64,000 nt of DNA from Phyllobacterium endophyticum (GTDB lineage: Bacteria; Pseudomonadota; Alphaproteobacteria; Rhizobiales; Rhizobiaceae), in the NCBI RefSeq assembly GCF_003010935.1, contig NZ_PGGN01000003.1, positions 496,001 through 560,000 on the forward strand, written 5' to 3'. The position numbers and the translations under genes are program-made. Each line of letters starts with the position of its first letter. The stretch's first letter is position 1. Below are positions 717 through 13,228 of this stretch, one piece after another. The notes below the pieces were generated by a model. It was not told the DNA's origin. It was given only the letters and a program-made list of their open reading frames with translations, and made no database searches.

Positions 717-1505
717 ATCATCAAGATACTCACTTACAACGTTCACAGCTGCGTCGGCAGTGACGGGCAAGCATCACCGGGTCGGATAGCCGAGATAATC
801 GCGGGCTGCGATCCGGACATTGTTGCCTTGCAGGAGCTCGATGTAGGGCGCAAACGCACTGGCGGGGTAGACCAGGCTCATGCAATTGCGGCCCATCTCG
901 GCATGGGAGTAGTCTTCAACCCGACGATCCATATCGCTGAAGAGCAATATGGCGATGCCATACTCACTCCGTTGGAGATGCGTCTGGTCAAGTCAGGCCC
1001 CCTGCCCTCCATCGGCGAGCGTCGAGGCGCTCTATGCGTGGAAGTCGTTTATGATGGCGGTACCGTAACGATCGTCAACACGCATCTGGGGCTCTCAAGA
1101 CGTGACCGTTCGGCTCAGGTGGCAGCCTTGCTCGGACCGGGATGGCTCGACAACCCCCTCAACAAATCGCCCAGGATACTTTTGGGCGATTTCAATCTGG
1201 TCCCCTCCTCGCTCGTCTACAAACAGATTACGCGCGAACTGGTTGACGTTTGGTCGGGCAGTAGCAGTCGGCCGGGCAAGACCTTTCCTTCCCGTCTTCC
1301 ATTGCTAAGGATCGATCACATATTTACGGATCGGGCCGTCCGCGTTATCGACGTAGGCGTGATCAGGACGCGCGCGGCGCGCGCGGCCTCTGATCACCTT
1401 CCTCTATTTGCGCACCTCGATATAATACCGCAGTTACACCGCCCGCAACGACACCCGAGCTTGGCCCGTCGACGGGAAGAAGTGCGCGTCCTGCCTCCGG
1501 CGTAA
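717..1505 (+). CDS. Endonuclease/exonuclease/phosphatase family protein (YbhP-like), no canonical start codon
   Basis: Metal-dependent phosphodiesterase/nuclease fold (EEP superfamily, like E. coli YbhP). The frame reads IKILTYNVHSC, then an ALQELDV metal-binding motif, NTHLGLS, GDFNLVPSS, RIDHIF and the terminal catalytic SDHLPL, so every family motif is intact. The N-terminal strand KILTYNV begins at 720, but the frame has stops at 696 and 702 and no ATG, GTG or TTG before the TTG at 828, which lies past the QEL motif. An AGGAG at 708-712 stands just before two ATC codons (717, 720), where a start would be expected. Either a rare ATC start is used or an ATG was lost. The C-terminal tail overlaps the convergent gene by 72 bases. 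Confidence 0.75.
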   Translation: MIKILTYNVHSCVGSDGQASPGRIAEIIAGCDPDIVALQELDVGRKRTGGVDQAHAIAAHLGMGVVFNPTIHIAEEQYGDAILTPLEMRLVKSGPLPSIGERRGALCVEVVYDGGTVTIVNTHLGLSRRDRSAQVAALLGPGWLDNPLNKSPRILLGDFNLVPSSLVYKQITRELVDVWSGSSSRPGKTFPSRLPLLRIDHIFTDRAVRVIDVGVIRTRAARAASDHLPLFAHLDIIPQLHRPQRHPSLARRREEVRVLPPA

Positions 1506-2846
1506 CTCAAGCAGGCGAGAATCCTCGGCAGTCACATCGCCGAGACGCACTGCGCTGCCTGCCTTGACGGGACGAACCAGCCTTCGATTGGCGACGAGAT
1601 AGAACGGTGCCGGTTGTTCAGACTCCAAAGGCCTGGCCGGAACAAGTGCCGACGATATATCCTTGATCGCGTGATGATGACCAACAGCCGTCAATATTGT
1701 TCCGGCGTCGAGATCGGCGTCGGCGATCGCTATCAGGTCGAAGCGCGGCTGCGGCTCCCTAGCGCCACTGGAACGACCATTCACTGCAGCTTCGAGAACA
1801 CTTGTGGCTGCCTCGAGACCAAGAAGATGGCGCGGCAGATAGATCATTGCCGTTGTACCATTGCGGCTGATTACATGTCCCTTTCCAGCAAGAAGCTCCC
1901 AGCTCACCTCATCTTCACATCTGACAACGATGAAAACGCCGCCTGCGAAACTGACTTCGCCGGGGAGGCGCAGGCAGTGGAAGACGTCCATCCGCCGTTC
2001 CCCGTTAAGAAGCCCCCCGTCTGTTCGCGTGGAGAAGAAGGTCGGAACCTCCGAAATTCGCGCGATCGGACAATGAAGCTCCGGACGGTCAGGCGAGACA
2101 TTGACCGAGTGAGAGACGACGGCAAGTTCGCAAAGATCGGGAACCGCTCGCTGGGGCAGTTTAGACGCCGCAGCCGATCTGGCCGCGACGAGTTCAGCAA
2201 CGTCTCGCCCGCCAAGTTCGAAATGCCCGGCGAACCCTGGAGCGGGAACAGAAATACCGTTGCTGGTCAATGTTTCCGTTGCCGGGTCGAACACAAAATC
2301 ATACTCACTCGACTTTCCGGCACAGATTATCTCAAAACCGAGAATTTCTGCCCAAGTGACGAGGCCGATAAGAAGGCTTGGCTGATCGCCGTCAACAGGC
2401 GTGACCACTCGCCCGTTGCCGGCGGCCATTTTTGCCAGACCTGGACCCACCACGCTGTCTACCTCCTTGGAAACCAGTGCGACGTGTTTGCCTGCTGCGA
2501 TGGCAAGTTGAGCGTGACCGGCACCGGCTTCAGGGTGTCCGGTGGCTTCGACCAGAACATCGAACGGCAAATGAACAACATGTTGCAAGTCGCCGGCTGC
2601 GATGGGGCGACCGCTGTTCCAGGCTGCGCTTGCTTCGTCCCTGTTGCAGCACTCGGCGACGTCGTCCAGCCCAACGGATCGTAGGGCAGCGGCGGCAGTA
2701 TCGACGTCGATGTCGACAGCGATGCGGGTCTCCATAAGCGGAACGTGCAAACTTTGCGCGAGAAAGCTGCGCCCAAAACCGCCCGTGCCAACGATACAGA
2801 CCTCAACCGGCTTGGCCGCGCCAGCGAAGTGGTCATGATAATTCAT
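1434..2846 (-). CDS. DRL/COG4091-family NAD(P)-dependent oxidoreductase with C-terminal SAF domain
   Basis: A 470-residue protein of the family annotated as predicted homoserine dehydrogenase. It has an N-terminal Rossmann fold (GTGGFG at residues 20-25), a central oxidoreductase domain and a C-terminal SAF-like region near residues 375-460. From family knowledge, the Brucella DRL enzyme of this group replaces Dxr in the MEP pathway, while many paralogues are unassigned. The ATG at 2846 is preferred over 2855 because AAAGGG lies about nine bases before it. The gene ends the minus-strand run pdxA2-tctC-tctB-tctA, so a role in catabolising the imported acid is more likely than isoprenoid synthesis. 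The substrate is not evident. Its end overlaps the YbhP-like gene. Confidence 0.7.
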   Translation of the reverse strand: MNYHDHFAGAAKPVEVCIVGTGGFGRSFLAQSLHVPLMETRIAVDIDVDTAAAALRSVGLDDVAECCNRDEASAAWNSGRPIAAGDLQHVVHLPFDVLVEATGHPEAGAGHAQLAIAAGKHVALVSKEVDSVVGPGLAKMAAGNGRVVTPVDGDQPSLLIGLVTWAEILGFEIICAGKSSEYDFVFDPATETLTSNGISVPAPGFAGHFELGGRDVAELVAARSAAASKLPQRAVPDLCELAVVSHSVNVSPDRPELHCPIARISEVPTFFSTRTDGGLLNGERRMDVFHCLRLPGEVSFAGGVFIVVRCEDEVSWELLAGKGHVISRNGTTAMIYLPRHLLGLEAATSVLEAAVNGRSSGAREPQPRFDLIAIADADLDAGTILTAVGHHHAIKDISSALVPARPLESEQPAPFYLVANRRLVRPVKAGSAVRLGDVTAEDSRLLELRRRQDAHFFPSTGQARVSLRAV

Positions 2847-2892
2847 CGAAACCATCCCTTTAAATTTCTAGGAAGCAGGCGAAGTTCGAACG

Positions 2893-4413
2893 TCAAGCCT
2901 TGGCGGACTGCCCCGCACGGCGGCGAGAACCACGTAGCCCGATCGCAGTGGCAATCAGAGGCCAAACAAGCATGAGAAGTCCGAGCGCCATGATCGCGCT
3001 GACGAGCGGGTTGGACCAGAAGATGGTCAAGGACCCGTTCGACATGAGCATGGATTGGCGAAAGGCATCCTCTGCCTTGTCCCCGAGGACCATTGCAAGC
3101 ACCAAGGGAGCAATCGGGTAGTCCAGCTTCTTGAAGAGATAGCCGAATACACCGAACCCGAGGACAAGCCACAAATCGAAAGTAGAATTGGCAATCTGAT
3201 AGGCGCCGGAGAAGATGATAGCGACGATCACGGGCCCAACTATGGAGAAGGGCACGCGCAAGATAGAGGCGTAAAGCGGCACTGTCGTAAGCACCAGTAG
3301 AACTGCAACCACATTGCCGATGTACATCGATGCGATCAGTCCCCAGACAAAATCCGGACGATCGATAAAGAGCATGGGCCCCGGCGTCAGGCCCCAGATC
3401 ATCAGCCCGCCCATCATCACAGCAGCCGTTGCTGATCCCGGAACCCCTAAGGCAAGCATGGGCAACAATGCGGACGTCCCGGCCGAATGATCGGCAGTTT
3501 CCGGCGATACGATGCCGCGCGGGTCGCCCTTGCCGAATTGAGATTTGTCCTTGGCGAAACGCCGGGCCAGACCATAGCTCATGAAAGACGCCGCGGTCGG
3601 GCCGGCCGGCGTTATTCCCATCCAGATGCCGATGATTGTCGAGCGCAGGATCGACCAGCCGTAGCGCGGCATTTCCTTCAGCGTCCGCACCACGTCGATC
3701 GCCCTAACCCGCGCCTTGATACCTTCGAATCTCAGCCCTTCCTCGGTGGTCAGCAGCAATTCCCCCAACCCGAACAGCCCCATCACGGCGACCAGGAAGG
3801 AGACGCCCTTGATGAGATCTGTGAGGCCAAAGGTCAGTCGCAATCCGCCGGAAATCGTATCCATGCCGACTGTAGCGAAGGCGAAGCCCAGCATCATCAT
3901 TACCAATGTCTTGGCCGCTGAGTTGGAGCCCATGCCAATGAAGCTTGCAAAGGCCAAAAAGTAGACCGCGAAGAACTCTGGCGATGAGAATTGCAGCGCG
4001 AAGCGGGCAACCCAGCTTGACAGCAATGTGATCATCATCACGCCAGCGAGCGCTCCAATCCCGGCTGACATGAAGGCGAGCGTTAGAGCGCGCGTCGCCT
4101 GCCCGCTGCGGGCCATCGGATAACCGTCGAACGTCGTCGCGACAGAGGAAGGCTCGCCGGGGATGTTGAAGAGTATTGAGGTGGTCGATCCGCCGAAGAG
4201 TGCACCCCAGTACATACAGGAGAGAAGTATGATGGCCGAGATTGGATCCATCGTGAAGGTGAGCGGCAAAAGCAGGGAAACGCCATTGGGGGCGCCCAGA
4301 CCCGGCAGCACACCAACGAGGATGCCAAGCATAACCCCCGCTATCATGATGACGATGTGGTGCATGGTAATGACAGTGGCGAAACCATCCATCAAGTAGC
4401 CGAAATTGCCCAT
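2893..4413 (-). CDS. tctA: TTT family transporter, large membrane subunit TctA
   Basis: The large, roughly 12-helix subunit of a tripartite tricarboxylate (TTT) transporter, which imports carboxylates with a periplasmic binding protein. Family signatures are clear: GVLPGLGAPNG near residue 30, the GGSTTSILFNIPGEPSSVAT block near residue 73, and a second GITPAGPTAASF region with SAGTSALLPMLALGVPGSAT. The ATG at 4413 (506 aa) follows GGGAGGAACC; a longer frame from 4527 would read through the intergenic spacer. It lies 49 bases after tctB and 46 bases before the DRL gene, so all are probably one transcript. The substrate is likely a sugar acid, judging from the neighbours. Confidence 0.92.
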   Translation of the reverse strand: MGNFGYLMDGFATVITMHHIVIMIAGVMLGILVGVLPGLGAPNGVSLLLPLTFTMDPISAIILLSCMYWGALFGGSTTSILFNIPGEPSSVATTFDGYPMARSGQATRALTLAFMSAGIGALAGVMMITLLSSWVARFALQFSSPEFFAVYFLAFASFIGMGSNSAAKTLVMMMLGFAFATVGMDTISGGLRLTFGLTDLIKGVSFLVAVMGLFGLGELLLTTEEGLRFEGIKARVRAIDVVRTLKEMPRYGWSILRSTIIGIWMGITPAGPTAASFMSYGLARRFAKDKSQFGKGDPRGIVSPETADHSAGTSALLPMLALGVPGSATAAVMMGGLMIWGLTPGPMLFIDRPDFVWGLIASMYIGNVVAVLLVLTTVPLYASILRVPFSIVGPVIVAIIFSGAYQIANSTFDLWLVLGFGVFGYLFKKLDYPIAPLVLAMVLGDKAEDAFRQSMLMSNGSLTIFWSNPLVSAIMALGLLMLVWPLIATAIGLRGSRRRAGQSAKA

Positions 4414-4462
4414 TTTCTGGTTCCTCCCAACCCGATCTTCTTCGCGCAACCCGCCGAATGGA

Positions 4463-4963
4463 TCAGTAGATGCCGAGCCAGTTTTCAACCGGGCCCTTGA
4501 GCAGCGGGACCTGAAAACCAATCTCAAAAACGATGTAAAACAGCGCTGAAACGGCCAGAGCCGCGAGGATGCAGATCCACCAGCGGTAGCCTCCTTGCCA
4601 TTTCATCGACGCGAAAATGTACAGCGCAGTACCAATATAAAGGCCCAGGAACAGCGAAACGATGAGGAAGGCGACAATTGGCAGGAAGAAGCCAAAAACC
4701 GACCTGGCTCTCTTGCCATCAATGAATATTTCGCCCCTGAACCTGGACAGGAAAATGCTGCGAAGCAAGGTTACGAGACTGCCGAGAATAATCAGCACAC
4801 CGATGTAGAAGGGGAAATAACCCGCGCCGGGGCCCATCTCGCTCCAGCCGATACCGCTTCGCCAGGAGCCATAGCAAACCGAAAGTCCTGCGGCCGAAGT
4901 CAGGAGCGCAGTGACGATCTCCATCGTCCTTCGGGATACGGAACCCTTGTCAAACTCGGCCAT
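4463..4963 (-). CDS. tctB: TTT family transporter, small membrane subunit TctB
   Basis: Small membrane subunit of the TTT importer, 166 residues, four predicted helices (near residues 15-33, 48-68, 90-112 and 130-150). The sequence is poorly conserved, as is usual for TctB, and assignment rests on size, topology, the GAGYFPFYIG-like segment and its place between tctC and tctA. The ATG at 4963 follows GGGAGGCGCGC. A perfect 11-bp hairpin separates it from tctC upstream. Confidence 0.88.
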   Translation of the reverse strand: MAEFDKGSVSRRTMEIVTALLTSAAGLSVCYGSWRSGIGWSEMGPGAGYFPFYIGVLIILGSLVTLLRSIFLSRFRGEIFIDGKRARSVFGFFLPIVAFLIVSLFLGLYIGTALYIFASMKWQGGYRWWICILAALAVSALFYIVFEIGFQVPLLKGPVENWLGIY

Positions 4964-4988
4964 GCGCGCCTCCCAAGCGTTGTAGAGG

Positions 4989-5014
4989 TTCGGGACGCAA
5001 ATGTGCGTCCCGAA
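4989..5014 (-). terminator. Intercistronic hairpin between tctC and tctB
   Basis: Perfect 11-bp inverted repeat (TTCGGGACGCA, loop of four, TGCGTCCCGAA) directly after the binding-protein gene. No U-tract follows on the minus strand, so it more likely stabilises the tctC message or causes partial termination than ends the transcript. This would give more binding protein than permease. Confidence 0.6.
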
Positions 5015-5020
5015 ATGATC

Positions 5021-6004
5021 TTATTTCACCAGCCAACCTTCGCGCTGCAGCACCTTGCGAACATTCTCGCGGTCAGCGGTCTGGTAGGCATTGAAGTCAT
5101 CACCCGCCATGAACTTCGATGTCTGAGATGTCTTGGCAACGTAATCTGCCCATTCAGGAGTTTCCGACACCTTCTTCAGAACGTCCCTATAAAACGCAAC
5201 GACATCGTCCTCGACTCCGGCAGGCAGCCAGACAGTGCGCGGCATACGGTAACTGTCGATCGCCAGGCCAGCTTCTGCGCAGGTTGGGATATCGTGCCAG
5301 CCCTTGCCATCATGTACTGCCGTGCCCTTTGGAAAACGGTCAGGCCGGAAAACACAAAGCGGCTTCACCATGCCGGCCTGCCACTGGCCGCGGTTCTCAT
5401 TTGGATTGTTCACATTGGCATCGATGTGACCGCCGGCAAGCTGCACAGCAGCCTCGCCGCCACTTTTGAACGGAATATAGCGGAACTCCGCCCCCGCGGT
5501 CGCCGCGATCGTGGATACGAGGATTTGGTCAGTATCCTTGGACTGGCTGCCGCCGAACTGTACTGCCTTCGGCTCGGCTTTCGCTGCAGCAACAAAATCC
5601 TTGATATTGTTGAATTTGGATTCACCGTTGACCCATACGATAAATTCATCGAGCGCCAAGGCAGCTACGGGCGTTAGATCCTCAGGGGCGTAGGGAACGT
5701 CAGCTACGCTGGGAAGCAGATATTCATTGTTGGTGCCGAAGGTCAGCTTGTAAGGATCACCCTTGTAACCCGCGGCGTAAACAAAGCCTTCCGCTCCGCT
5801 GCCGCCGCCCTTGTTCGTAACCACTACCGGTGCCTTCATCAACTTGTGCTTGGAGATGATCGATTGCACGGTGCGGGCGAAATTGTCTGTGCCGCCACCC
5901 GGCCCGGATGTTACGACGAATTCGACAGGACGTGTCGGCTCGAAAGCCAGCGCAGGCGCTGCCATGGTCATTGCAAGCAATGCCAGAGTGATTTTTCTCA
6001 ACAT
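5021..6004 (-). CDS. tctC: TTT family transporter, periplasmic binding protein TctC (Bug family)
   Basis: Extracytoplasmic solute receptor of the TctC/Bug family, 327 residues, with a signal peptide over residues 1-20 (MLRKITLALLAMTMAAPALA). It carries the usual PTRPVEFVVTSGPGGGTDNF start of the mature protein. The ATG at 6004 follows GGGAGGACCC; an upstream alternative at 6040 would put charged residues before the signal peptide and is rejected. It lies 77 bases downstream of pdxA2. Bug proteins bind small carboxylates, and a tetronate or a related hydroxy acid would suit the surrounding enzymes, but the ligand cannot be read from sequence. Confidence 0.92.
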   Translation of the reverse strand: MLRKITLALLAMTMAAPALAFEPTRPVEFVVTSGPGGGTDNFARTVQSIISKHKLMKAPVVVTNKGGGSGAEGFVYAAGYKGDPYKLTFGTNNEYLLPSVADVPYAPEDLTPVAALALDEFIVWVNGESKFNNIKDFVAAAKAEPKAVQFGGSQSKDTDQILVSTIAATAGAEFRYIPFKSGGEAAVQLAGGHIDANVNNPNENRGQWQAGMVKPLCVFRPDRFPKGTAVHDGKGWHDIPTCAEAGLAIDSYRMPRTVWLPAGVEDDVVAFYRDVLKKVSETPEWADYVAKTSQTSKFMAGDDFNAYQTADRENVRKVLQREGWLVK

Positions 6005-6081
6005 ATTGGGTCCTCCCGGTAGTTGAACCGCCCGCCGCAAGCTCCTACCCCGGCGGTTCGGCTCTGTTTCGTGTTGATCGT

Positions 6082-7128
6082 TTATGCGACGCCTTTCAAT
6101 GTACCCTGCCGCGCAGCCATTCTCGCCGCCAGCAGTACTGCTTCGCGCGAAGCTCCTACGTCGGCGATGCCCCGGCCGGCGATGTCGTAGGCAGTGCCAT
6201 GAGCCGGCGTGCAGAGCGGAAAAGGTAAGCCACCCATCATCGTCACGCCTTTGTCGAATCCCATCATCTTCATCGCGATCTGACCTTGGTCGTGATACAT
6301 CGTCAGCACCGCGTGGAAGCCCTCCTTCACGGCACGAAGAAAGACAGTATCAGCCGGAAAGGGACCCTCGACGGCATGGCCTTTGGCTTTTGCGCGGGCG
6401 ACGGCGGGCTCGATGATCTCGATCTCCTCCATTCCGAAGCTGCCCCCATCGCCGGCGTGGGGGTTGAGCCCCGCGACCGCAATCCTGGGCGTGTCAATTC
6501 CGGCGAGACGCAGGCAAGTCTCGGTCAATTCTATTTCGGCGAGTATCGCATCCTCGTTGATATGGGCCGACACTGCCGATAACGGAATATGTGAGGTCAC
6601 CCGCGCGTTCCATATACGGTCGAGTACATTGAACTCGCGCATCCGGCCCTTGAACGAGAGAACATCGGAAACGAATCGAATCTCGTCGTCGTAGTTCGGG
6701 TAGGCGAAACGCATCGCCTTTTTATTGAATGGGGTAAAGCACACACCATCGACGCGGCCTTCATTGGCCAAGAGCAGTGCGAAGCGAAAGTTCTCCGTCG
6801 CAAAGGTGCCACCGGCAAGTGTTGCTTCACCGCGGATCACGTCAGCAGGATCGAGGTGTTCAAGGTCGACAAAGACAGGCCGTGCTGCAGGTTCGACCGA
6901 GAAATCATCTGCTTTGCGGTAATCAAGATCGAGCACGACATCTGCGACAGCACTGCCCTCTTCCAGAATGCGACGATCGCCGATCACCACGAAATGAGCC
7001 GCCTGCTTGAGCTCTGGCAACGATAGTATTTTGGCGGTCAACTCCGCACTGATGCCGGCGGGATCTCCCATGGCTAGCGCCAGGACAGGCCGATTTCTGC
7101 TAACGTCGACAGCTTCAGCAAGCGCCAT
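6082..7128 (-). CDS. pdxA2: PdxA2-type 4-phospho-D-threonate 3-dehydrogenase (PdxA family)
   Basis: PdxA-family NAD-dependent, metal-dependent oxidative decarboxylase. The conserved ligands are present: TSHIPL, the TMYHDQGQ motif and TPAHGTAYDIAG. PdxA proper makes vitamin B6 from 4-phosphohydroxythreonine. The PdxA2 subgroup turns 4-phospho-D-threonate or -erythronate into DHAP and CO2, and PdxA2 is preferred here because no pdx genes are near and the gene heads a TTT operon. The ATG at 7128 has GGAGGA upstream; a GTG at 7155 would translate the ribosome-binding site itself. The gene is divergent from a GntR regulator. No kinase belongs to this module, so the phosphorylated substrate must come from elsewhere. 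Confidence 0.82.
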   Translation of the reverse strand: MALAEAVDVSRNRPVLALAMGDPAGISAELTAKILSLPELKQAAHFVVIGDRRILEEGSAVADVVLDLDYRKADDFSVEPAARPVFVDLEHLDPADVIRGEATLAGGTFATENFRFALLLANEGRVDGVCFTPFNKKAMRFAYPNYDDEIRFVSDVLSFKGRMREFNVLDRIWNARVTSHIPLSAVSAHINEDAILAEIELTETCLRLAGIDTPRIAVAGLNPHAGDGGSFGMEEIEIIEPAVARAKAKGHAVEGPFPADTVFLRAVKEGFHAVLTMYHDQGQIAMKMMGFDKGVTMMGGLPFPLCTPAHGTAYDIAGRGIADVGASREAVLLAARMAARQGTLKGVA

Positions 7129-7190
7129 GAAAAGTTCTCCTCCGATGATCGCCACTGATTACCCGCAAAATTCCGACGGCGCAAGTATTT

Positions 7191-7198
7191 TGTATACA
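7191..7198. promoter_or_regulatory. Probable GntR operator TGTATACA
   Basis: A perfect 8-bp palindrome TGTATACA in an A+T-rich stretch (TTTTGTATACAGTATAAAA) in the divergent gap between pdxA2 and the GntR gene. TTGTATACAA-type sites are usual for FCD-class GntR repressors. It lies 63 bases upstream of the pdxA2 start, so binding could block that promoter. Confidence 0.55.
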
Positions 7199-7297
7199 GT
7201 ATAAAACATTATGTATGGGAACCCGTATCATTTTGCCGGATTCGATGCGAAACTGAGCCCGATTCCGGCTCGCTAGGAGCCTTGCAGGAGAGAGATA

Positions 7298-7981
7298 ATG
7301 GCCTCTGAAGTGTTCGAACCGGTTGGAAAGCGCACAGTTGCCACGATCTCGCGGCAGTCGCTGCACGGTGAGATAGTAACGCGGCTGCGCGACATGATCA
7401 TCGAGGGGGAGCTGCAGCCCGGAGAGCGGATATATGAAAATCAGCTGGGCGAAGAGTTGGGCGTCTCCCGCACGCCTTTACGCGAGGCTTTGAAATTTCT
7501 CGCCAGCGAAGGGCTGGTCGAACTGGTGCCAAGCCGCGGGGCAGTGGTCAAGCGGTTTTCTGCCAAGGACGTTGAGGACATGCTTATAGTCATCCGCTCC
7601 CTGGAGATGCTTGCCGGACGCCTGGCATGCGTGCAGGCCAGTGATGAAGATATCGCAAGGATACGCCAGCTTCACGATGCGATGGTGAACCATTACAGCC
7701 GGGGCGAAAGGCTCGAATATTACAAATTAAATCAGCAGATCCATACGGGAATCGTCTCCTTGGCCAATAGCGCGCCGCTTGCCGAGGTCCATGGGCTGTT
7801 GCAGTCGCGTGTCAAGCGCATCCGCTTCATCGGGCATGAGGGAGCGGAGCGCTGGGCAGGTGCCGTCGCCGAACATGAGCGCATTATCGGCGCGCTGGAA
7901 GCTCGAGACGCCGAAACATTGGCCCGTGAACTGGATACTCACCTCGTCAACGGCTGGGAACGGGTGAAGTCGGTCGTCTGA
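7298..7981 (+). CDS. GntR family regulator, FCD (FadR) subfamily
   Basis: DNA-binding regulator of 227 residues. The N-terminal winged helix-turn-helix covers residues 20-85 (GEELGVSRTPLREALKFLAS). The C-terminal all-helical FCD ligand domain covers residues 95-220 and usually binds a carboxylate through a metal held by Asp and His residues (HDAMVNHY, NQQIHTGI and EHERIIGAL are visible). The ATG at 7298 follows AGGAGAGAGATA. It is divergent from the pdxA2-tctCBA-DRL operon and is most likely its substrate-sensing repressor. It converges on otnC with a 27-base gap. Confidence 0.9.
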   Translation: MASEVFEPVGKRTVATISRQSLHGEIVTRLRDMIIEGELQPGERIYENQLGEELGVSRTPLREALKFLASEGLVELVPSRGAVVKRFSAKDVEDMLIVIRSLEMLAGRLACVQASDEDIARIRQLHDAMVNHYSRGERLEYYKLNQQIHTGIVSLANSAPLAEVHGLLQSRVKRIRFIGHEGAERWAGAVAEHERIIGALEARDAETLARELDTHLVNGWERVKSVV

Positions 7982-8008: not shown

Positions 8009-8683
8009 TTATTCGCTATGATCGTGGCCATGCTCATGATCTGGAAGGTCAAGATCAAAATTCTTGGCGAGATCGCCAACCTGCGCCGGGCTGAGATAAC
8101 GTGGATTGAGATTTCGCAATAGGAGGTAAAGTTTCGCCGTCTCCTCCAGTTCCTCGGTCGCAAAAACCGCGGTTTCAAGACTGTCGCCCGCCACTACCGG
8201 CCCGTGATTTGCCAGCAGAACGGATGAATACCTGCCCGCAAGTCCGCGGATCGCATCGGCTACAGCCGGATCACCAGGGCGGTAGTAAGGTAGGAGAGCG
8301 GTCTGGCCAGCTCGCATGAGATAATAGGGCGTCATTGGCGGCAAAGCGGCGCGTGGATCGATCTCGGGCAACATTGTCAAGGCAACCGCATGAGTCGAAT
8401 GGAGGTGGACAATCGCCCGCGCGCTTCCTCGTGATTCATAAAGGGCGTTGTGAAGGGGGATCTCCTTCGTGGGCTGATCCCCTGAGACCAGCACTCCCCC
8501 GGCGTCGAGGCGAGCCAGCCGGGCGGGGTCGAGAAAGCCCAGAGACGCATTCGTCGGGGTTACCAACCAACCTCCGTCATCAAGCCGTAGGGATATGTTC
8601 CCCGACGAGCCGGGCGTCAGACCTCGTTCGAACAGCGAACGCCCGTATCGGCAAATTTCCTCTCGCAGGCGCGATTCAGACAT
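8009..8683 (-). CDS. otnC: OtnC-like 3-oxo-tetronate 4-phosphate decarboxylase (class II aldolase fold)
   Basis: Class II aldolase/adducin-fold enzyme, 224 residues. The zinc ligands H93, H95 (HLHSTH) and H160 (ANHGPV) and the catalytic acid E74 (PTKEIPLH) are all present. In the described L-threonate/D-erythronate route OtnC decarboxylates 3-oxo-tetronate 4-phosphate to DHAP. That role is inferred from the linked ltnD, otnI and otnK genes; by sequence alone it could be a fuculose-phosphate-type aldolase. The tail is rich in His and acidic residues (DHEHGHDH), possibly a metal-rich end. It sits 14 bases after the lacI gene, so regulator and enzyme are co-transcribed. GGAGGTACTT precedes the ATG. 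Confidence 0.85.
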   Translation of the reverse strand: MSESRLREEICRYGRSLFERGLTPGSSGNISLRLDDGGWLVTPTNASLGFLDPARLARLDAGGVLVSGDQPTKEIPLHNALYESRGSARAIVHLHSTHAVALTMLPEIDPRAALPPMTPYYLMRAGQTALLPYYRPGDPAVADAIRGLAGRYSSVLLANHGPVVAGDSLETAVFATEELEETAKLYLLLRNLNPRYLSPAQVGDLAKNFDLDLPDHEHGHDHSE

Positions 8684-8697
8684 AAGTACCTCCGGTG

Positions 8698-9699
8698 TCA
8701 GGCAGTTGCCCCTTCAATGAGCTCGAAGCCGAGATCGACAACCTGCGGGGACGCGTTGTCCATGATGAGTTTTGCCGCTAACTCTCCAGCCGCGACGCGC
8801 GGCGTGCGTATGGTGGAAAGAGCTTGCGGCATCACTCGGCCGAGATCGAGGCCATTATAGCCGAAAATCGCCAGTTGGGACGGGATGACGATTCCCCGCG
8901 CCAAACAATGGAAATAGCCACCGAGCGCCATGTCGTCGTTGGAAAAATAGACGGCGTCTAAATCCGGGGTCCGGGCCAACAGCCGATCAAGACCCAAACG
9001 CCCCCGTTCGACAGAAGACGCTTCACGATAAATTTCCTGATCCGCAAGCGGCGTGCCGTTCGCACTCAATGTATCGCAGAAACTCGAGTAGCGTTTGCCG
9101 GCGCGTGTATCGCGGTCAATATCATGACCCACATAGCCAATCCGGCGATAACCGCGCTTCAATAGAAACTCTGCGCTTTGACGACCCGCCGCTCGATTCG
9201 AAAAACCGACGGCAAGATCCAGCGCCGTACCGTCGACATCGAGTAGTTCAACTGCACGGCAATTCGACGCTCGAAGCATCTTGATGGTACGCTCCGTATG
9301 CTCATACCCTGCCAATATGACCGCCGCAGGCCGCCAAGCCAGCATAGACGCCACCAGCGCCTCCTCCCGAGCCGGATCATAGTCGGTTACCGCGAAAACC
9401 GCCTGATACTGATTATTTTCCAGCGTCGCGCTTGCGCCTCGAAGGACATCGGCAAAGACGATGTTGGACAGCGACGGTATGACAAAGGCGACGAGGCGAG
9501 AACCGGCCGAGGCGAGCGTACCGGCGATCCGGTTGGGAACATAGCCGAGCCGTTCAACGGCGGTCATGACACGTTCTCTTGTCTTGCCGGAGTAAGATCC
9601 GTGATTTCGCAGGACCCGGGAGACAGTGCTTTCGCCGACGCCGGCCGCCTTGGCAACCTGCGCGAGCGTCACTGACACCTGATCTCTGGACGTCATCAT
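8698..9699 (-). CDS. LacI family regulator of the tetronate genes
   Basis: LacI/GalR-type repressor, 333 residues. It has an N-terminal helix-turn-helix (TLAQVAKAAGVGESTVSRVL, about residues 10-30) followed by a periplasmic-binding-protein-like sensor domain from residue 65. It most resembles the gluconate GntR branch of the family. The start is uncertain between the paired ATGs at 9699 and 9696; GAGGA lies directly before the first, so the second has the better spacing. It is divergent from ltnD-otnI-otnK, and the gap holds two near-identical 14-bp palindromes, which fit direct control of both directions. The inducer is probably a pathway acid (inference). Confidence 0.9.
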   Translation of the reverse strand: MMTSRDQVSVTLAQVAKAAGVGESTVSRVLRNHGSYSGKTRERVMTAVERLGYVPNRIAGTLASAGSRLVAFVIPSLSNIVFADVLRGASATLENNQYQAVFAVTDYDPAREEALVASMLAWRPAAVILAGYEHTERTIKMLRASNCRAVELLDVDGTALDLAVGFSNRAAGRQSAEFLLKRGYRRIGYVGHDIDRDTRAGKRYSSFCDTLSANGTPLADQEIYREASSVERGRLGLDRLLARTPDLDAVYFSNDDMALGGYFHCLARGIVIPSQLAIFGYNGLDLGRVMPQALSTIRTPRVAAGELAAKLIMDNASPQVVDLGFELIEGATA

Positions 9700-9765: not shown

Positions 9766-9802
9766 TGGCAGCGCTACCATTTTGTCATTGGCAGCGCTGC
9801 CA
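9766..9802. promoter_or_regulatory. Two LacI-type operators, 23 bp apart
   Basis: TGGCAGCGCTACCA (9766-9779) and the perfect palindrome TGGCAGCGCTGCCA (9789-9802) lie in the divergent gap between lacI-otnC and ltnD. The first differs from the second at one base. Their centre distance of 23 bp is about two helical turns, so two dimers would bind the same face. The central CGCT-type symmetry fits LacI-family operators. Confidence 0.8.
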
Positions 9803-9867: not shown

Positions 9868-10809
9868 ATGTCAGAAACCGTTACCGTCCGTCAGAATACC
9901 GTGGTGGCGGCAGTTATTGGACTTGGCTCAATGGGTATGGGGATGGCCAGATCCATGAATCAGGCCGGCCTCGATGTGGTCGGTTGTGACATTACACCCG
10001 ATGCGGTCGATCGTTTCGTCGCCAATGGCGGTCGTGGCGCCACCACGGCAATCGAAGCCGCAACAGATGCCGATATTGTCGTCTCCGTGGTTGTCAATGC
10101 CGCGCAGACGGAGGCGATACTATTCGGCCCCGATGGCATAGCCGGCACGATGAAGCCCGGCGCAGTGTTCATCTCATCGGCCACGATGGATCCCGCTATC
10201 GCACGTGATCTGTCGCGACGGGTCGAAGCTTGCGGCCACCATTATCTGGATGCCCCGATATCTGGCGGTGCGGCAAAGGCAGCGAGCGGTGAACTTACGA
10301 TCATGGCCTCTGGATCCAGGCAGGCTTTCGAGCTTGCCCGTCCAGCTCTGGATGCAATGGCCGCCAAGGTTTACGAACTCGGCGATGCTGCTGGTGCTGG
10401 TGCAGCCTTCAAGATGGTCAATCAGCTTCTTGCCGGCGTCCATATTGCGGCGGCCTGCGAGGCAATAAGCTTTGCTGCCAAGCAAGGCCTTGATCTCGAT
10501 AAGGTGTACGAAGTAATCACCGCATCCGCAGGCAATTCCTGGATGTTTCAAAATAGGGTTCCCCACGTGCTGGCGGGAGACTACACGCCCCTCAGTACCG
10601 TCGAAATCTTCGTCAAGGATCTTGGCATCGTTCAGGACATGGCGCGTGCCGAACGGTATCCTGTACCGCTCGTAGCTGCGGCTTTGCAGATGTATCTTGC
10701 TGCCTCAGGTGCTGGCATGGGCCGGGATGACGACGCGTCTCTTGCACGGATCTACGCCTTGCTTTCCGGCGCTAAGCTGCCGAATACCAGCGGCGGTTCG
10801 CTAGCCTGA
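9868..10809 (+). CDS. ltnD: L-threonate dehydrogenase-like 3-hydroxyacid dehydrogenase
   Basis: Beta-hydroxyacid dehydrogenase, 313 residues. The nucleotide site is GLGSMGMGMA (residues 18-27), the substrate loop is DAPISGGAAKAASGEL (128-143) and the catalytic lysine is K182 in FKMVNQLL. In the described pathway LtnD oxidises L-threonate to 2-oxo-tetronate. The family also holds tartronate semialdehyde reductase and 3-hydroxyisobutyrate dehydrogenase, so the name rests on the linked otnI, otnK and otnC genes. GGGAGGCTACCC precedes the ATG. It is the first gene of the plus-strand operon and follows two LacI operators. Confidence 0.86.
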   Translation: MSETVTVRQNTVVAAVIGLGSMGMGMARSMNQAGLDVVGCDITPDAVDRFVANGGRGATTAIEAATDADIVVSVVVNAAQTEAILFGPDGIAGTMKPGAVFISSATMDPAIARDLSRRVEACGHHYLDAPISGGAAKAASGELTIMASGSRQAFELARPALDAMAAKVYELGDAAGAGAAFKMVNQLLAGVHIAAACEAISFAAKQGLDLDKVYEVITASAGNSWMFQNRVPHVLAGDYTPLSTVEIFVKDLGIVQDMARAERYPVPLVAAALQMYLAASGAGMGRDDDASLARIYALLSGAKLPNTSGGSLA

Positions 10810-10823
10810 CGAGAGGATTCACT

Positions 10824-11600
10824 ATGCCCGTATTTGCCGCCAACCTGTCCATGATGTTCAACGAGTGGCCGTTTCTGGACCGTTTCGCTGCTGCTGCCGA
10901 TGCTGGCTTTGCGGCTGTTGAATATCTGTTCCCCTATGAAGTCACGCCCGAATCTATCTCGGAGAGGCTCCGCCGCAACAATCTTCAGCAGGCGTTGTTC
11001 AATCTTCCCCCTGGCGACTGGGCCGCGGGTGAGCGTGGCATTGCCGCGCTCCCCGGTCGGTTCGATGACTTGAAATCGGATGTGGAACGGGCGCTCGATT
11101 ATGCATCGGCAACCGGCGTTAAGCGAATGCACCTGATGGCGGGCATCGCCGATCCCCATGACGATGTGGCTGCGTCCTGCTATCGGCGCTCTGTAACCTA
11201 CACTGCCGGTCGGCTTGCCGAAGCGGGTATCGATCTGATGTTGGAGCCGATCAACGCGCGAAACATGCCAGGATATTTCCTCGATGATTTCGGCACTGCA
11301 GAACGGCTCATTGCGAATCTCGGCTTCGCAAACCTCAAGCTCCAGTTCGATATCTACCATCGCCAGATCATGCACGGCGATGTGACCATGGCTCTGCGCC
11401 GCCTGATGCCTGTGACTGGCCATGTTCAAATCGCCAGCGTTCCTTCGCGCCACGAACCCGACGGTGAAGAACTGAACTTCCCGTTTATTCTCCAGGAGAT
11501 CGACCGTCTCGGCTATGATGGCTTCGTGGGTTGCGAATATATCCCAAGAACCGGAACTCTGGACGGTTTGAGCTGGTTCGAACCCTTTAGACGGAGCTAG
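10824..11600 (+). CDS. otnI: 2-oxo-tetronate isomerase OtnI (hydroxypyruvate isomerase family)
   Basis: TIM-barrel isomerase of the Hyi/OtnI family, 258 residues. Characteristic pieces are FAANLSMMFNEWPFLDRF at the start, the metal-site acids in MLEPINARNMPGYFL and GCEYIPR, and LQFDIYHRQIMHGD. It is expected to interconvert 2-oxo-tetronate and 3-oxo-tetronate, supplying the kinase encoded next. Hydroxypyruvate isomerase is the alternative but fits the operon less well. AGAGGATTCACT precedes the ATG. It lies 14 bases after ltnD and 3 bases before otnK. Confidence 0.88.
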   Translation: MPVFAANLSMMFNEWPFLDRFAAAADAGFAAVEYLFPYEVTPESISERLRRNNLQQALFNLPPGDWAAGERGIAALPGRFDDLKSDVERALDYASATGVKRMHLMAGIADPHDDVAASCYRRSVTYTAGRLAEAGIDLMLEPINARNMPGYFLDDFGTAERLIANLGFANLKLQFDIYHRQIMHGDVTMALRRLMPVTGHVQIASVPSRHEPDGEELNFPFILQEIDRLGYDGFVGCEYIPRTGTLDGLSWFEPFRRS

Positions 11601-11603
11601 GCC

Positions 11604-12884
11604 ATGACGATATTGCTTGGATCAATTGCGGATGACTATACGGGGGCGTCTGATCTTGCCAATACGCTGACAAAAAATGGCCTGCGCACGATCCAGACGG
11701 TAGGCATCCCCGACGCAGCCTTGGACCTGCCAGATGTCGATGCCATCGTTATCGCCCTGAAGATTCGCTCCGTCCCTGCCGCGAGCGCTATATTTCTTGC
11801 GTCTGAAGCGTATCGATGGCTGTACGGTCTTGGCGCCAGACACGTCCTTTACAAGATTTGTTCGACATTCGACTCCACGGATGCCGGGAACATCGGCCCG
11901 GTTACCGAAGCACTCGGCAGCATGGCAGGAGCCGACACAGTCCTCGTGACGCCGGCTTTTCCCGAGACGGGTCGTACCGTCTATTTCGGTAATCTTTTTG
12001 TCAACGGACAACCGCTGAACGAAAGCCCGCTTAAAGATCATCCCCTCAATCCAATGCACGATGCCAATCTGGTACGCGTCCTGGCAAGACAGTCGCGGGG
12101 TGGCGTCGGGCTCGTCGAGCTCCCGACCGTCTCAGCAGGCACCGCTGCCGTGAAGTCGCGACTGTATGCGTTGCGCGACAAAGGTTTTTCGGCAGCGATT
12201 GCTGACGCACTCGTGGAGCGTGACCTTGAAACACTCGGTGCTGTCGCGCTTCAGATGAAGGTTTCGACAGGAGCATCCGGGCTGGGCTTGGGTCTTGCCC
12301 GGGCGCTCGTACAATCCGGTGATGTGCCGCTGAACCCCACAACTGCAGCCGACATTATTCGTCCCGTCGGCGGACTGGCCGCCATTGTTGTCGGCAGTTG
12401 CTCCAGCGCAACGCTCCGGCAAGTCGAGATTGCCGAACAGTCGATGCCCGTGCTGAGGCTTGACAGCGAAAGACTGATTGGCGGGTCTGACGAGATTTCC
12501 GCCGCGATATCCTGGGCAGGCGAGCGCGTCGCGAAAGGTCCTGTGCTTATCTCTGCCAGCGGGACGCCCGAAGCCGTCGCCGAGCTTCAATCGCGATACG
12601 GTCGCGATGTTTCAGGTCATGCTATCGAGGCTGCCACGTCACACATAGCGGCCGAGCTCGTGACAAGGGGCGTTCGTCGTCTCGTGATCGCAGGAGGCGA
12701 GACGTCCGGCGCGGCAGTTGACAGGCTTGGCATCCCAGCCTTCCTGATTGGACCCGAAATCGCGCCGGGTGTACCGGTTTTGCGCACCGTGGGAAATGCT
12801 CAGGGAGAAATGCTACTGGCCCTAAAGTCCGGCAATTTTGGAGGCGAGAACTTCTTTGCAACTGCTATGAGCATGATGCGTTGA
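11604..12884 (+). CDS. otnK: 3-oxo-tetronate kinase OtnK (DUF1537 four-carbon acid sugar kinase)
   Basis: DUF1537 kinase, 426 residues. The N-terminal sugar-acid-binding domain opens with ADDYTGASDLAN, followed by KICSTFDSTDAGNIGP near residue 90. The C-terminal ATP-binding domain has VVGSCSSATLRQ, VIAGGETSGAAVDRLG and LALKSGNFG. It phosphorylates the acid at C4. Paired with otnI and otnC it should act as OtnK; D-threonate kinase (DtnK) is the alternative and would supply the PdxA2 of the neighbouring module. It is the only DUF1537 kinase in the window. Confidence 0.9.
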   Translation: MTILLGSIADDYTGASDLANTLTKNGLRTIQTVGIPDAALDLPDVDAIVIALKIRSVPAASAIFLASEAYRWLYGLGARHVLYKICSTFDSTDAGNIGPVTEALGSMAGADTVLVTPAFPETGRTVYFGNLFVNGQPLNESPLKDHPLNPMHDANLVRVLARQSRGGVGLVELPTVSAGTAAVKSRLYALRDKGFSAAIADALVERDLETLGAVALQMKVSTGASGLGLGLARALVQSGDVPLNPTTAADIIRPVGGLAAIVVGSCSSATLRQVEIAEQSMPVLRLDSERLIGGSDEISAAISWAGERVAKGPVLISASGTPEAVAELQSRYGRDVSGHAIEAATSHIAAELVTRGVRRLVIAGGETSGAAVDRLGIPAFLIGPEIAPGVPVLRTVGNAQGEMLLALKSGNFGGENFFATAMSMMR

Positions 12885-12940: not shown

Positions 12941-13228
12941 GTGGCCAAGCCCAAATCATTGATCGTTACAATCCGTGGCAAAGTGCAGGGTGTCGGTTTC
13001 CGCTACTGGACACAAACTGAGGCACAAAAGCTGGGACTTCGAGGCTGGGTGCGTAACGAAAGCGATGGCTCCGTTTGCGCCCTCATCGTCGGACCGGAAC
13101 ATGCTGTAGACAAGATGCTGAAGCGTTTCGAGGAGGGGCCGGGAGCAGCTTCGGTCTCGCGCGTCACCAGCGAATCCAGTGGTAAGGGCCAGTCCGCTGA
13201 CGGCTTCAATATTGTCGGTTCCGATTAA
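12941..13228 (+). CDS. acyP: Acylphosphatase
   Basis: Small acylphosphatase of 95 residues with both catalytic residues, R21 in VQGVGFRYW and N39 in RNESDG. It hydrolyses carboxyl-phosphate bonds in the cytosol. It starts with GTG at 12941 and has only a weak ribosome-binding site. It follows otnK by 56 bases without an obvious terminator, so it may ride on the tetronate transcript, although acylphosphatases are commonly stand-alone housekeeping genes. Confidence 0.93.

Follow-up and report, generated by a model that had tools for sequence, protein, structure and literature searches.

A DXR-II-related oxidoreductase as a candidate tetronate dehydrogenase in a kinase-free transporter operon of Phyllobacterium endophyticum

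We analysed a 64,000-nucleotide stretch of the Phyllobacterium endophyticum genome (the window, C6:496001-560000 of genome G000, which is 5.5 Mb long and 99.98% complete). Near its start lies an operon of five minus-strand genes, which encode a DXR-II-like oxidoreductase, the TctA, TctB and TctC components of a tripartite tricarboxylate transporter (TTT) and a PdxA paralogue, and a divergent gene encodes a GntR regulator (Table 1). We use the name DLO for the DRL-like oxidoreductase of the window and its relatives. The open reading frames (ORFs) and Pfam families agree with a preliminary description of this DNA, which had recognized a minus-strand pdxA2, a TTT importer and a DRL-family gene beside a divergent gntR: all six proteins score above the Pfam cut-off for their own family, and the transporter set is complete. 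The same description had stated that the operon contains no kinase gene, and the Pfam scan found no kinase family among the six proteins. The TTG start listed for TctA is the earliest possible one, and its true start may be further in.

Table 1. Genes and predicted regulatory sites of the DLO operon and the adjoining module (positions within the window)
Feature	Position	Strand	Evidence or place
DLO, DXR-II-like oxidoreductase	1434-2855	-	PF21135 DRL_cat 67.7 bits (cut-off 27) and NAD_binding_3
TctA, TTT importer permease	2893-4527	-	Pfam 467 bits
TctB, TTT importer small permease	4463-4963	-	Pfam 64.5 bits
TctC, TTT solute-binding protein	5021-6040	-	Pfam 87.5 bits
PdxA-family protein	6082-7155	-	PF04166 279.8 bits
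Predicted GntR operator, palindrome ATTTTGTATACAGTAT	7187-7202		gntR-pdxA2 divergent promoter
GntR/FCD regulator, divergent	7298-7981	+	Pfam GntR and FCD
OtnC, 3-oxo-tetronate 4-phosphate decarboxylase	8009-8683	-	NCBIfam 324.2 bits, cut-off 250
LacI regulator of neighbouring module	8698-9699	-	Pfam
Two LacI-type boxes	9766-9779 (one mismatch), 9789-9802 (exact)		lacI-ltnD gap
LtnD, L-threonate dehydrogenase	9868-10809	+	NCBIfam 452.4 bits, cut-off 350
OtnI, 2-oxo-tetronate isomerase	10824-11600	+	NCBIfam 366.4 bits, cut-off 325
OtnK, DUF1537 3-oxo-tetronate kinase	11604-12884	+	NCBIfam 509.4 bits, cut-off 350

The adjoining module encodes a complete L-threonate/oxo-tetronate set, with LtnD, OtnI, OtnK and OtnC all above their NCBIfam equivalog cut-offs. 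A tetronate pathway of these four enzymes, ending in dihydroxyacetone phosphate, is described in a published account (PMC12540250).

The relatives of DLO with solved structures are the DXR-II (DRL) enzymes of Brucella. At E 0.001, the DLO sequence matched only 3UPL and 3UPY in the PDB (best 3UPL, phmmer E 4.6e-28), and the predicted DLO structure (pLDDT 93, pTM 0.90) found 3upl_B as its best Foldseek match (E 2.1e-33, TM 0.76, 23% identity), while the next other structure followed at E 7.9e-8. In a tree of 78 chosen rows, the groups that we call DXR-II (5 rows), KG (28) and PD (45) each occupied one side of a branch with SH-aLRT support of 99-100, and the window DLO fell into the PD clade. The labels KG and PD are our own and come from the very residues compared below; the tree was built on the whole alignment, by a 'quick' method that warned of long branches meeting. 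DLO is thus homologous to DXR-II and yet outside its clade.

According to a 2013 survey, the family splits into DXR-II and two groups without an assigned function, DLO1 and DLO2, whose proteins it describes as uncharacterised, and the residues of Brucella DXR-II that anchor fosmidomycin are Thr229, Lys191 and Lys193 (Carretero-Paulet 2013, PMC3847144). The window DLO resembles DLO1 and DLO2 in its place outside the DXR-II clade, and may belong to either group or to neither. Two of the three fosmidomycin anchors are lost in the window DLO and in all 80 named relatives, where K191 is kept, K193 is replaced by serine and T229 by aspartate, which is D240 in the window protein. E232 is also kept, and R320 is a leucine in the window and mostly aliphatic in the relatives. 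Compared with Brucella DXR-II, DLO shares the family, the fold, K191 and E232, and differs in clade, in the two replaced anchors, in its transporter operon and in a biosynthetic role that other genes can fill.

An aspartate that closes the second beta strand (D48), a residue that often marks NAD enzymes, was found in 76 of the 80 DLOs and hints weakly at an oxidative enzyme linked to NAD. From these sequence features, we predict that DLO is an NAD-linked dehydrogenase of a free sugar acid. A paper assigning a function to DLO proteins was not found in the open literature, which is no proof that none exists, as most subscription papers were outside reach.

The kinship with DXR-II also admits the reading that DLO is a third enzyme forming 2-C-methyl-D-erythritol 4-phosphate (MEP) from 1-deoxy-D-xylulose 5-phosphate, which is favoured by homology, by the fold match and by the lack of a dxr match in the genome (the same search was positive in 9 of 14 control genomes). 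The genes dxs and ispH are present above cut-off. However, contig C7 carries two strong DRL_cat genes (231.6 bits each, against 43 and 26.4 bits in two parts, 71.1 together, for the window gene in the same genome search), both with the DXR-II motifs and both clustering on the tree with three other motif-bearing proteins. Because these two genes can fill the role, the window DLO is not needed for MEP synthesis. The changed key residues in 80 of 80 relatives and the place of the gene in a transporter operon also argue against an MEP role, and the survey reports that four tested DLO1/DLO2 proteins did not complement a dxr mutant (PMC3847144). We consider a third MEP-forming DXR-II scarcely credible and rejected it on account of the two motif-bearing genes. 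The preliminary description had treated absence of dxr elsewhere as making the window gene the MEP enzyme; dxr was indeed not found, yet the C7 pair deprives that absence of its force. The two C7 genes (272663-273154, L003; 556182-556673, L004) are nearly identical in different neighbourhoods and look like a recent duplication, and one of them adjoins genes resembling thiamine-diphosphate dehydrogenases (by eye and by weak matches to the dxs model).

The PdxA paralogue bears on whether the operon lacks a kinase that it needs. In Escherichia coli PdxA, the phosphorylated substrate is bound by H136, T137, K274, N283 and R292, and the metal ligands are H166, H211 and H266. We aligned one PdxA protein longer than 250 amino acids from each of 62 DLO loci and found that H136 is replaced by E, N283 by T and R292 by L, I or V in all 62 and in the window protein. 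T137 has become I in 55 of the 62 and another residue in six, and is still T in one (L079); the window protein has E, I, T and L at positions 136, 137, 283 and 292. H166, H211, H266, D247 and K274 are invariant throughout. All ten compared residues are kept in E. coli PdxA, in a Pantoea protein annotated as D-threonate 4-phosphate dehydrogenase and in the PdxA proteins encoded on contigs C5 and C6 of this genome, which has four PdxA-family genes. The window PdxA falls under every listed NCBIfam equivalog cut-off (251 of 290.35 bits for PdxA and 193.1 of 583 for D-threonate 4-phosphate dehydrogenase).

If these are the roles of the residues, the replacement of four substrate contacts means that a kinase acting before PdxA is not needed. 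Consequently, the premise of the preliminary description that PdxA2 needs a 4-phosphorylated acid, and with it the missing kinase, largely falls, and we rejected a phospho-acid role of the window PdxA on these residues. The paralogue is predicted to be a dehydrogenase/decarboxylase of a free hydroxy acid, and it and DLO both probably act on free acids. A second PdxA without the contact residues, 43-45% identical to that of the window, lies at C8:139218-140090 (L122:9114-10136), directly behind a tartrate dehydrogenase above its NCBIfam cut-off.

A different solution, also offered in the preliminary description, is that the modules share the kinase: the next-door OtnK would phosphorylate the acid first, and PdxA2 and DLO would act on the 4-phosphate. 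OtnK does lie close by in the window and in 33 of 80 relatives, and a 2016 study of DUF1537 reportedly established a DUF1537-PdxA2 route for D-threonate, which the window resembles in having a PdxA paralogue beside sugar-acid genes. Unlike that pathway, the DLO operon has no kinase, its PdxA has lost the presumed phosphate contacts and its score is far from the model for the D-threonate enzyme. The aspartate of DLO at T229 argues the same way, and the window kinase is of the 3-oxo-tetronate type, with 122.1 bits against the D-threonate kinase model, far under the cut-off of 450. Moreover, a search for another DUF1537 gene found a second one in this genome, at C6:152860, in a cluster (L121:4964-11941) that includes a PdxA with all contact residues and, by eye, a DeoR-like regulator and a sugar-type binding protein. 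On the D-threonate kinase model this DUF1537 gene reaches 93.7 bits where the cut-off is 450, and the cluster looks like an ordinary kinase-dependent arrangement, perhaps for a kinase-PdxA pathway without an assigned function. We judge prior phosphorylation by OtnK to be decidedly improbable; the link with OtnK is real at the family level, but the residues speak against its acting before PdxA and DLO.

Loss of the four contact residues is shared by a Rhodococcus PdxA (L131) encoded beside ring-hydroxylating dioxygenase genes, whose presumed substrate is unphosphorylated. That likeness favours an aromatic-acid operon of the terephthalate type, in which PdxA would be a dihydrodiol dehydrogenase and TctC an aromatic-acid binder. 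However, the ORFs of loci L001-L120 contained no match to the alpha and beta subunits of that dioxygenase (E 1e-5, 40% coverage), and such an operon would leave the linkage of DLO with OtnK and OtnC unexplained. It is very improbable, and we rejected it on the missing dioxygenase match; the five minus-strand genes of the DLO operon all belong to other families.

We compared the neighbourhoods of 80 named DLO loci (66 from Alphaproteobacteria, 7 from Gammaproteobacteria, 2 from Betaproteobacteria, one from an actinomycete, one from a metagenome-assembled genome labelled as a cyanobacterium and 3 unplaced). Gene counts cover the flanks examined, several of which end at contig ends (for example, L049, L055 and L099); TctA, LtnD and DenD were counted at 45% identity or more. 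The map was filtered by composition and replaced a clustering of longest ORFs, which was noisy in GC-rich DNA. PdxA2 was found in 64 flanks, TctA in 64 and both in 61, and the gene order is therefore not a matter of chance. OtnK occurred in 33 flanks, OtnC in 34, OtnI in 26, Dak in 12 and an amidohydrolase in 11.

All 33 loci with OtnK also have OtnC, while only six of them also have LtnD or DenD; no match to either dehydrogenase was found at that identity in the flanks of the other 27. The search for rival dehydrogenases covered the LtnD and DenD families in all loci, and at four loci a further scan took in ten neighbouring genes. In 22 of the 80 loci, DLO and OtnK adjoin each other on one strand. 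The nine OtnK proteins scanned, including that of the window, all score above the 3-oxo-tetronate kinase cut-off and under those for D-threonate kinase and 3-oxo-isoapionate kinase (607.8 bits against the 3-oxo-tetronate model and 133.6 against the 3-oxo-isoapionate model in one example). A Streptomyces OtnC (212.8 of 250) and two OtnI proteins (320.7 and 259.1 of 325) stay under their cut-offs. The link with OtnK also appears without PdxA2 in the flanks examined: Candidimonas has DLO-TctCBA-OtnK-OtnC, and Streptomyces has OtnC-OtnK divergent from DLO-GntP. Scored on the tree as a label in 48 rows, 19 of which carry it (window included), OtnK in cis requires at least 11 changes.

The distant DLOs of the KG clade show a similar arrangement. 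In two genomes (L137 and L138) the order is TRAP-DLO-OtnI-OtnK-OtnC followed by DeoR, with no match to LtnD or DenD in the 15 kb examined, and the L137 kinase, isomerase and decarboxylase score above their equivalog cut-offs. Another KG-clade DLO (L139) lies beside LtnD-OtnK-OtnC-OtnI, and at the KG-group loci L133-L136 the queries used found no tetronate genes. Near DLO and OtnK at L141 (8452-9228) and L142 (4240-4926) there is an Asp/Glu-racemase-family gene and no OtnC match; the gene is perhaps an alternative racemase or decarboxylase.

Dak and PdxA2 occur together in 11 loci and share a strand in every one, and the two genes are 58 to 178 bp apart in seven of them. This suggests that dihydroxyacetone or a related ketose is involved. 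The window genome has three Dak1 matches elsewhere. In 16 of the 80 loci (L083, L091, L051, L090 and others), a xylose-isomerase-like TIM-barrel gene lies beside the PdxA/DLO module; the L091 copy had no NCBIfam match.

Where OtnK was not counted beside DLO, the genomes tested have it elsewhere. We tested 36 of the 47 loci without a counted OtnK, in 35 genomes (all but L052, L053, L055, L068, L086, L093, L099, L100, L108, L116 and L120), and every one of the 35 genomes has an OtnK above cut-off at another place. Across the order, OtnK is above cut-off in the window's own genome and in 17 of the 18 other genomes with a close DLO (E 2.7e-70 or better among the matches listed; the exception is G002), compared to 173 of 397 overall (Fisher P ~2e-6 with the window genome and 5e-6 without it, kinship ignored). 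A close PdxA (E 1e-70 or better) occurs in 15 of these 18 genomes.

The predicted operator of the GntR regulator is conserved in part of the sample. Its pattern ATNNTGTATACANNAT has one exact match in the genome, in the divergent promoter of the window, and none of 100 shuffles reached the two operator matches seen in the window. The other match, with one mismatch, lies at 13101-13116 inside a short ORF downstream of otnK. In 32 of the 80 loci, the octamer TGTATACA is no more than 450 nt away from where gntR, pdxA2, tctC, DLO or the TIM-barrel gene begins; it occurs elsewhere in one more locus and is absent from 47. In the Paracoccus-type loci L083, L091, L113 and L115 it occurs both at gntR/TIM-Dak and in front of the PdxA-TctCBA-DLO-OtnK run, and in L059 it lies between gntR and PdxA2 and also ahead of a PdxA fragment with TctCBA-DLO. 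The LacI-type boxes of the adjoining module came from a search with up to two mismatches in which 9 of 100 shuffles reached two matches, and their support is their place and the exact copy. As the preliminary description had supposed, the DLO operon and the otn module are regulated apart here, but the products of the two may converge. We considered whether the GntR regulon extends to the otn module in this genome and rejected this because the exact operator occurs once in the genome.

We propose, with a probability of about 0.58, that DLO is a third, non-homologous tetronate dehydrogenase that feeds OtnK and OtnC and that the PdxA paralogue serves as a hydroxy-acid dehydrogenase/decarboxylase that works without a kinase. 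TctABC would import a small hydroxy acid, most likely a four-carbon aldonate (a tetronate) or a close relative, which would be oxidised in its free form, without prior phosphorylation. Gone from MEP synthesis and NAD-linked, DLO would convert a free tetronate-like acid to 2-oxo- or 3-oxo-tetronate in place of LtnD or DenD, a role suggested by gene context. The oxo-tetronate would then pass through OtnI, OtnK and OtnC to dihydroxyacetone phosphate; the genes for these enzymes belong to the DLO run itself in some relatives and to the adjoining LacI module in the window. Separately, the PdxA paralogue would oxidise, and probably decarboxylate, a free hydroxy acid; its product would most likely be a free ketose such as dihydroxyacetone, to be phosphorylated by Dak, which is encoded beside it in some relatives. 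GntR would act on the divergent promoter in response to the acid or a metabolite. We know of no published catabolic route for L-erythronate, which makes it an attractive candidate, although the data select no isomer.

Several observations weigh against this proposal. All 22 DLO-OtnK adjacencies come from three genera (16 from Microvirga, 5 from Paracoccus and one from Gemmobacter), OtnK was not counted in 47 of the 80 flanks (one of these, L093, shows the end of an OtnK above cut-off), and PdxA2 was not seen in 16 of the 80 loci, some of them cut by contig ends. DLO also lies near intact-looking LtnD/DenD modules (L041, L056, L057, L063, L070 and L114; L139 and L148), and it is therefore not simply their replacement. 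In Candidimonas (L078) an unrelated zinc dehydrogenase is encoded about 3.5 kb away on the opposite strand. OtnK is common in the order, and its presence in trans is therefore partly expected. A close PdxA is present in 58 of the 397 order genomes, 42 of which have no close DLO among the matches listed, so that DLO and PdxA are linked but separable. The two modules of the window answer to different regulators, with a GntR operator in one and LacI boxes in the other. Furthermore, a search at the gntR genes of Microvirga found no TGTATACA, and gene order is consequently the only argument for shared GntR control of OtnK in that genus.

The remaining contrary evidence concerns the size of the substrate. 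The amidohydrolase of 11 of the 80 loci points to larger or branched acids, as do enzymes of other sugar-acid routes, namely a dehydratase in L081 and a DHDPS-family gene in L117. PdxA2, DLO or both could act on five- to six-carbon or branched acids, with DLO possibly keeping a DXR-like rearrangement as an oxidoisomerase and a four-carbon product entering OtnK/OtnC or an erythrulose-type kinase. The survey describes DXR-II as a reductoisomerase (PMC3847144). The occurrence of Dak and the xylose-isomerase-like gene in some loci is in keeping with such a route, and one amidohydrolase is best matched by the fuconolactonase model, although at 106.2 of 400 bits it is far under the cut-off. The acid may accordingly derive from an external sugar lactone. 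L-ascorbate catabolism reportedly includes a PdxA-family enzyme that decarboxylates a branched acid carrying no phosphate (Stack, 2020). However, the scanned DLO-linked kinases match the 3-oxo-tetronate model rather than the 3-oxo-isoapionate one, which argues against a larger or branched substrate, and we regard it as tentative and on the whole unlikely. A particular form, in which the PD-clade DLO has kept the DXR-II rearrangement and is an oxidoisomerase whose substrate is a free branched or five-carbon acid, opening a kinase-free route to oxo-tetronates together with the PdxA that lacks the contact residues, appears rather improbable. If true, it would be a new pathway built from relatives of isoprenoid and vitamin B6 enzymes. 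Examples of the amidohydrolases (Amidohydro_2) are found at L095:8925-10004, L079:5904-6977 and L085:1943-2866.

With DLO as a tetronate dehydrogenase, the question narrows to the oxidation of a free sugar acid to an oxo-tetronate, with OtnK and OtnC downstream. The preliminary description had proposed an unknown step on a four- or five-carbon phospho-acid; a DRL-related, probably unassigned step on a four-carbon type of acid still stands, while the phosphate is not supported, as the putative contact residues are replaced. The pathway would be of a known kind, since the kinase, decarboxylase and isomerase linked to DLO belong to the same families as those of the LtnD-OtnI-OtnK-OtnC route. Its first dehydrogenase would instead be of the DXR-II type, not 6-phosphogluconate dehydrogenase-like as LtnD is or epimerase-like as DenD is. 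If true, both this first enzyme and a PdxA working without a kinase would be new variants. Annotations as 'DRL' or 'PdxA' in such operons may misdirect to isoprenoids, vitamin B6 or phospho-acids; as marks of the putative sugar-acid versions, we note S193 and D229 in DLO (80 of 80) and E136, T283 and an aliphatic residue at 292 in PdxA (62 of 62).

Two smaller observations concern a relative and the edge of the operon. The DenD of L057, from the genome named as a cyanobacterium, is 94% identical to that of L056, which is labelled alphaproteobacterial, and L057 may be a foreign contig. In the window, a plus-strand ORF (828-1505) that by eye resembles the endonuclease/exonuclease/phosphatase family converges on the operon and shares its last 72 bases with the 3' part of the DLO gene.

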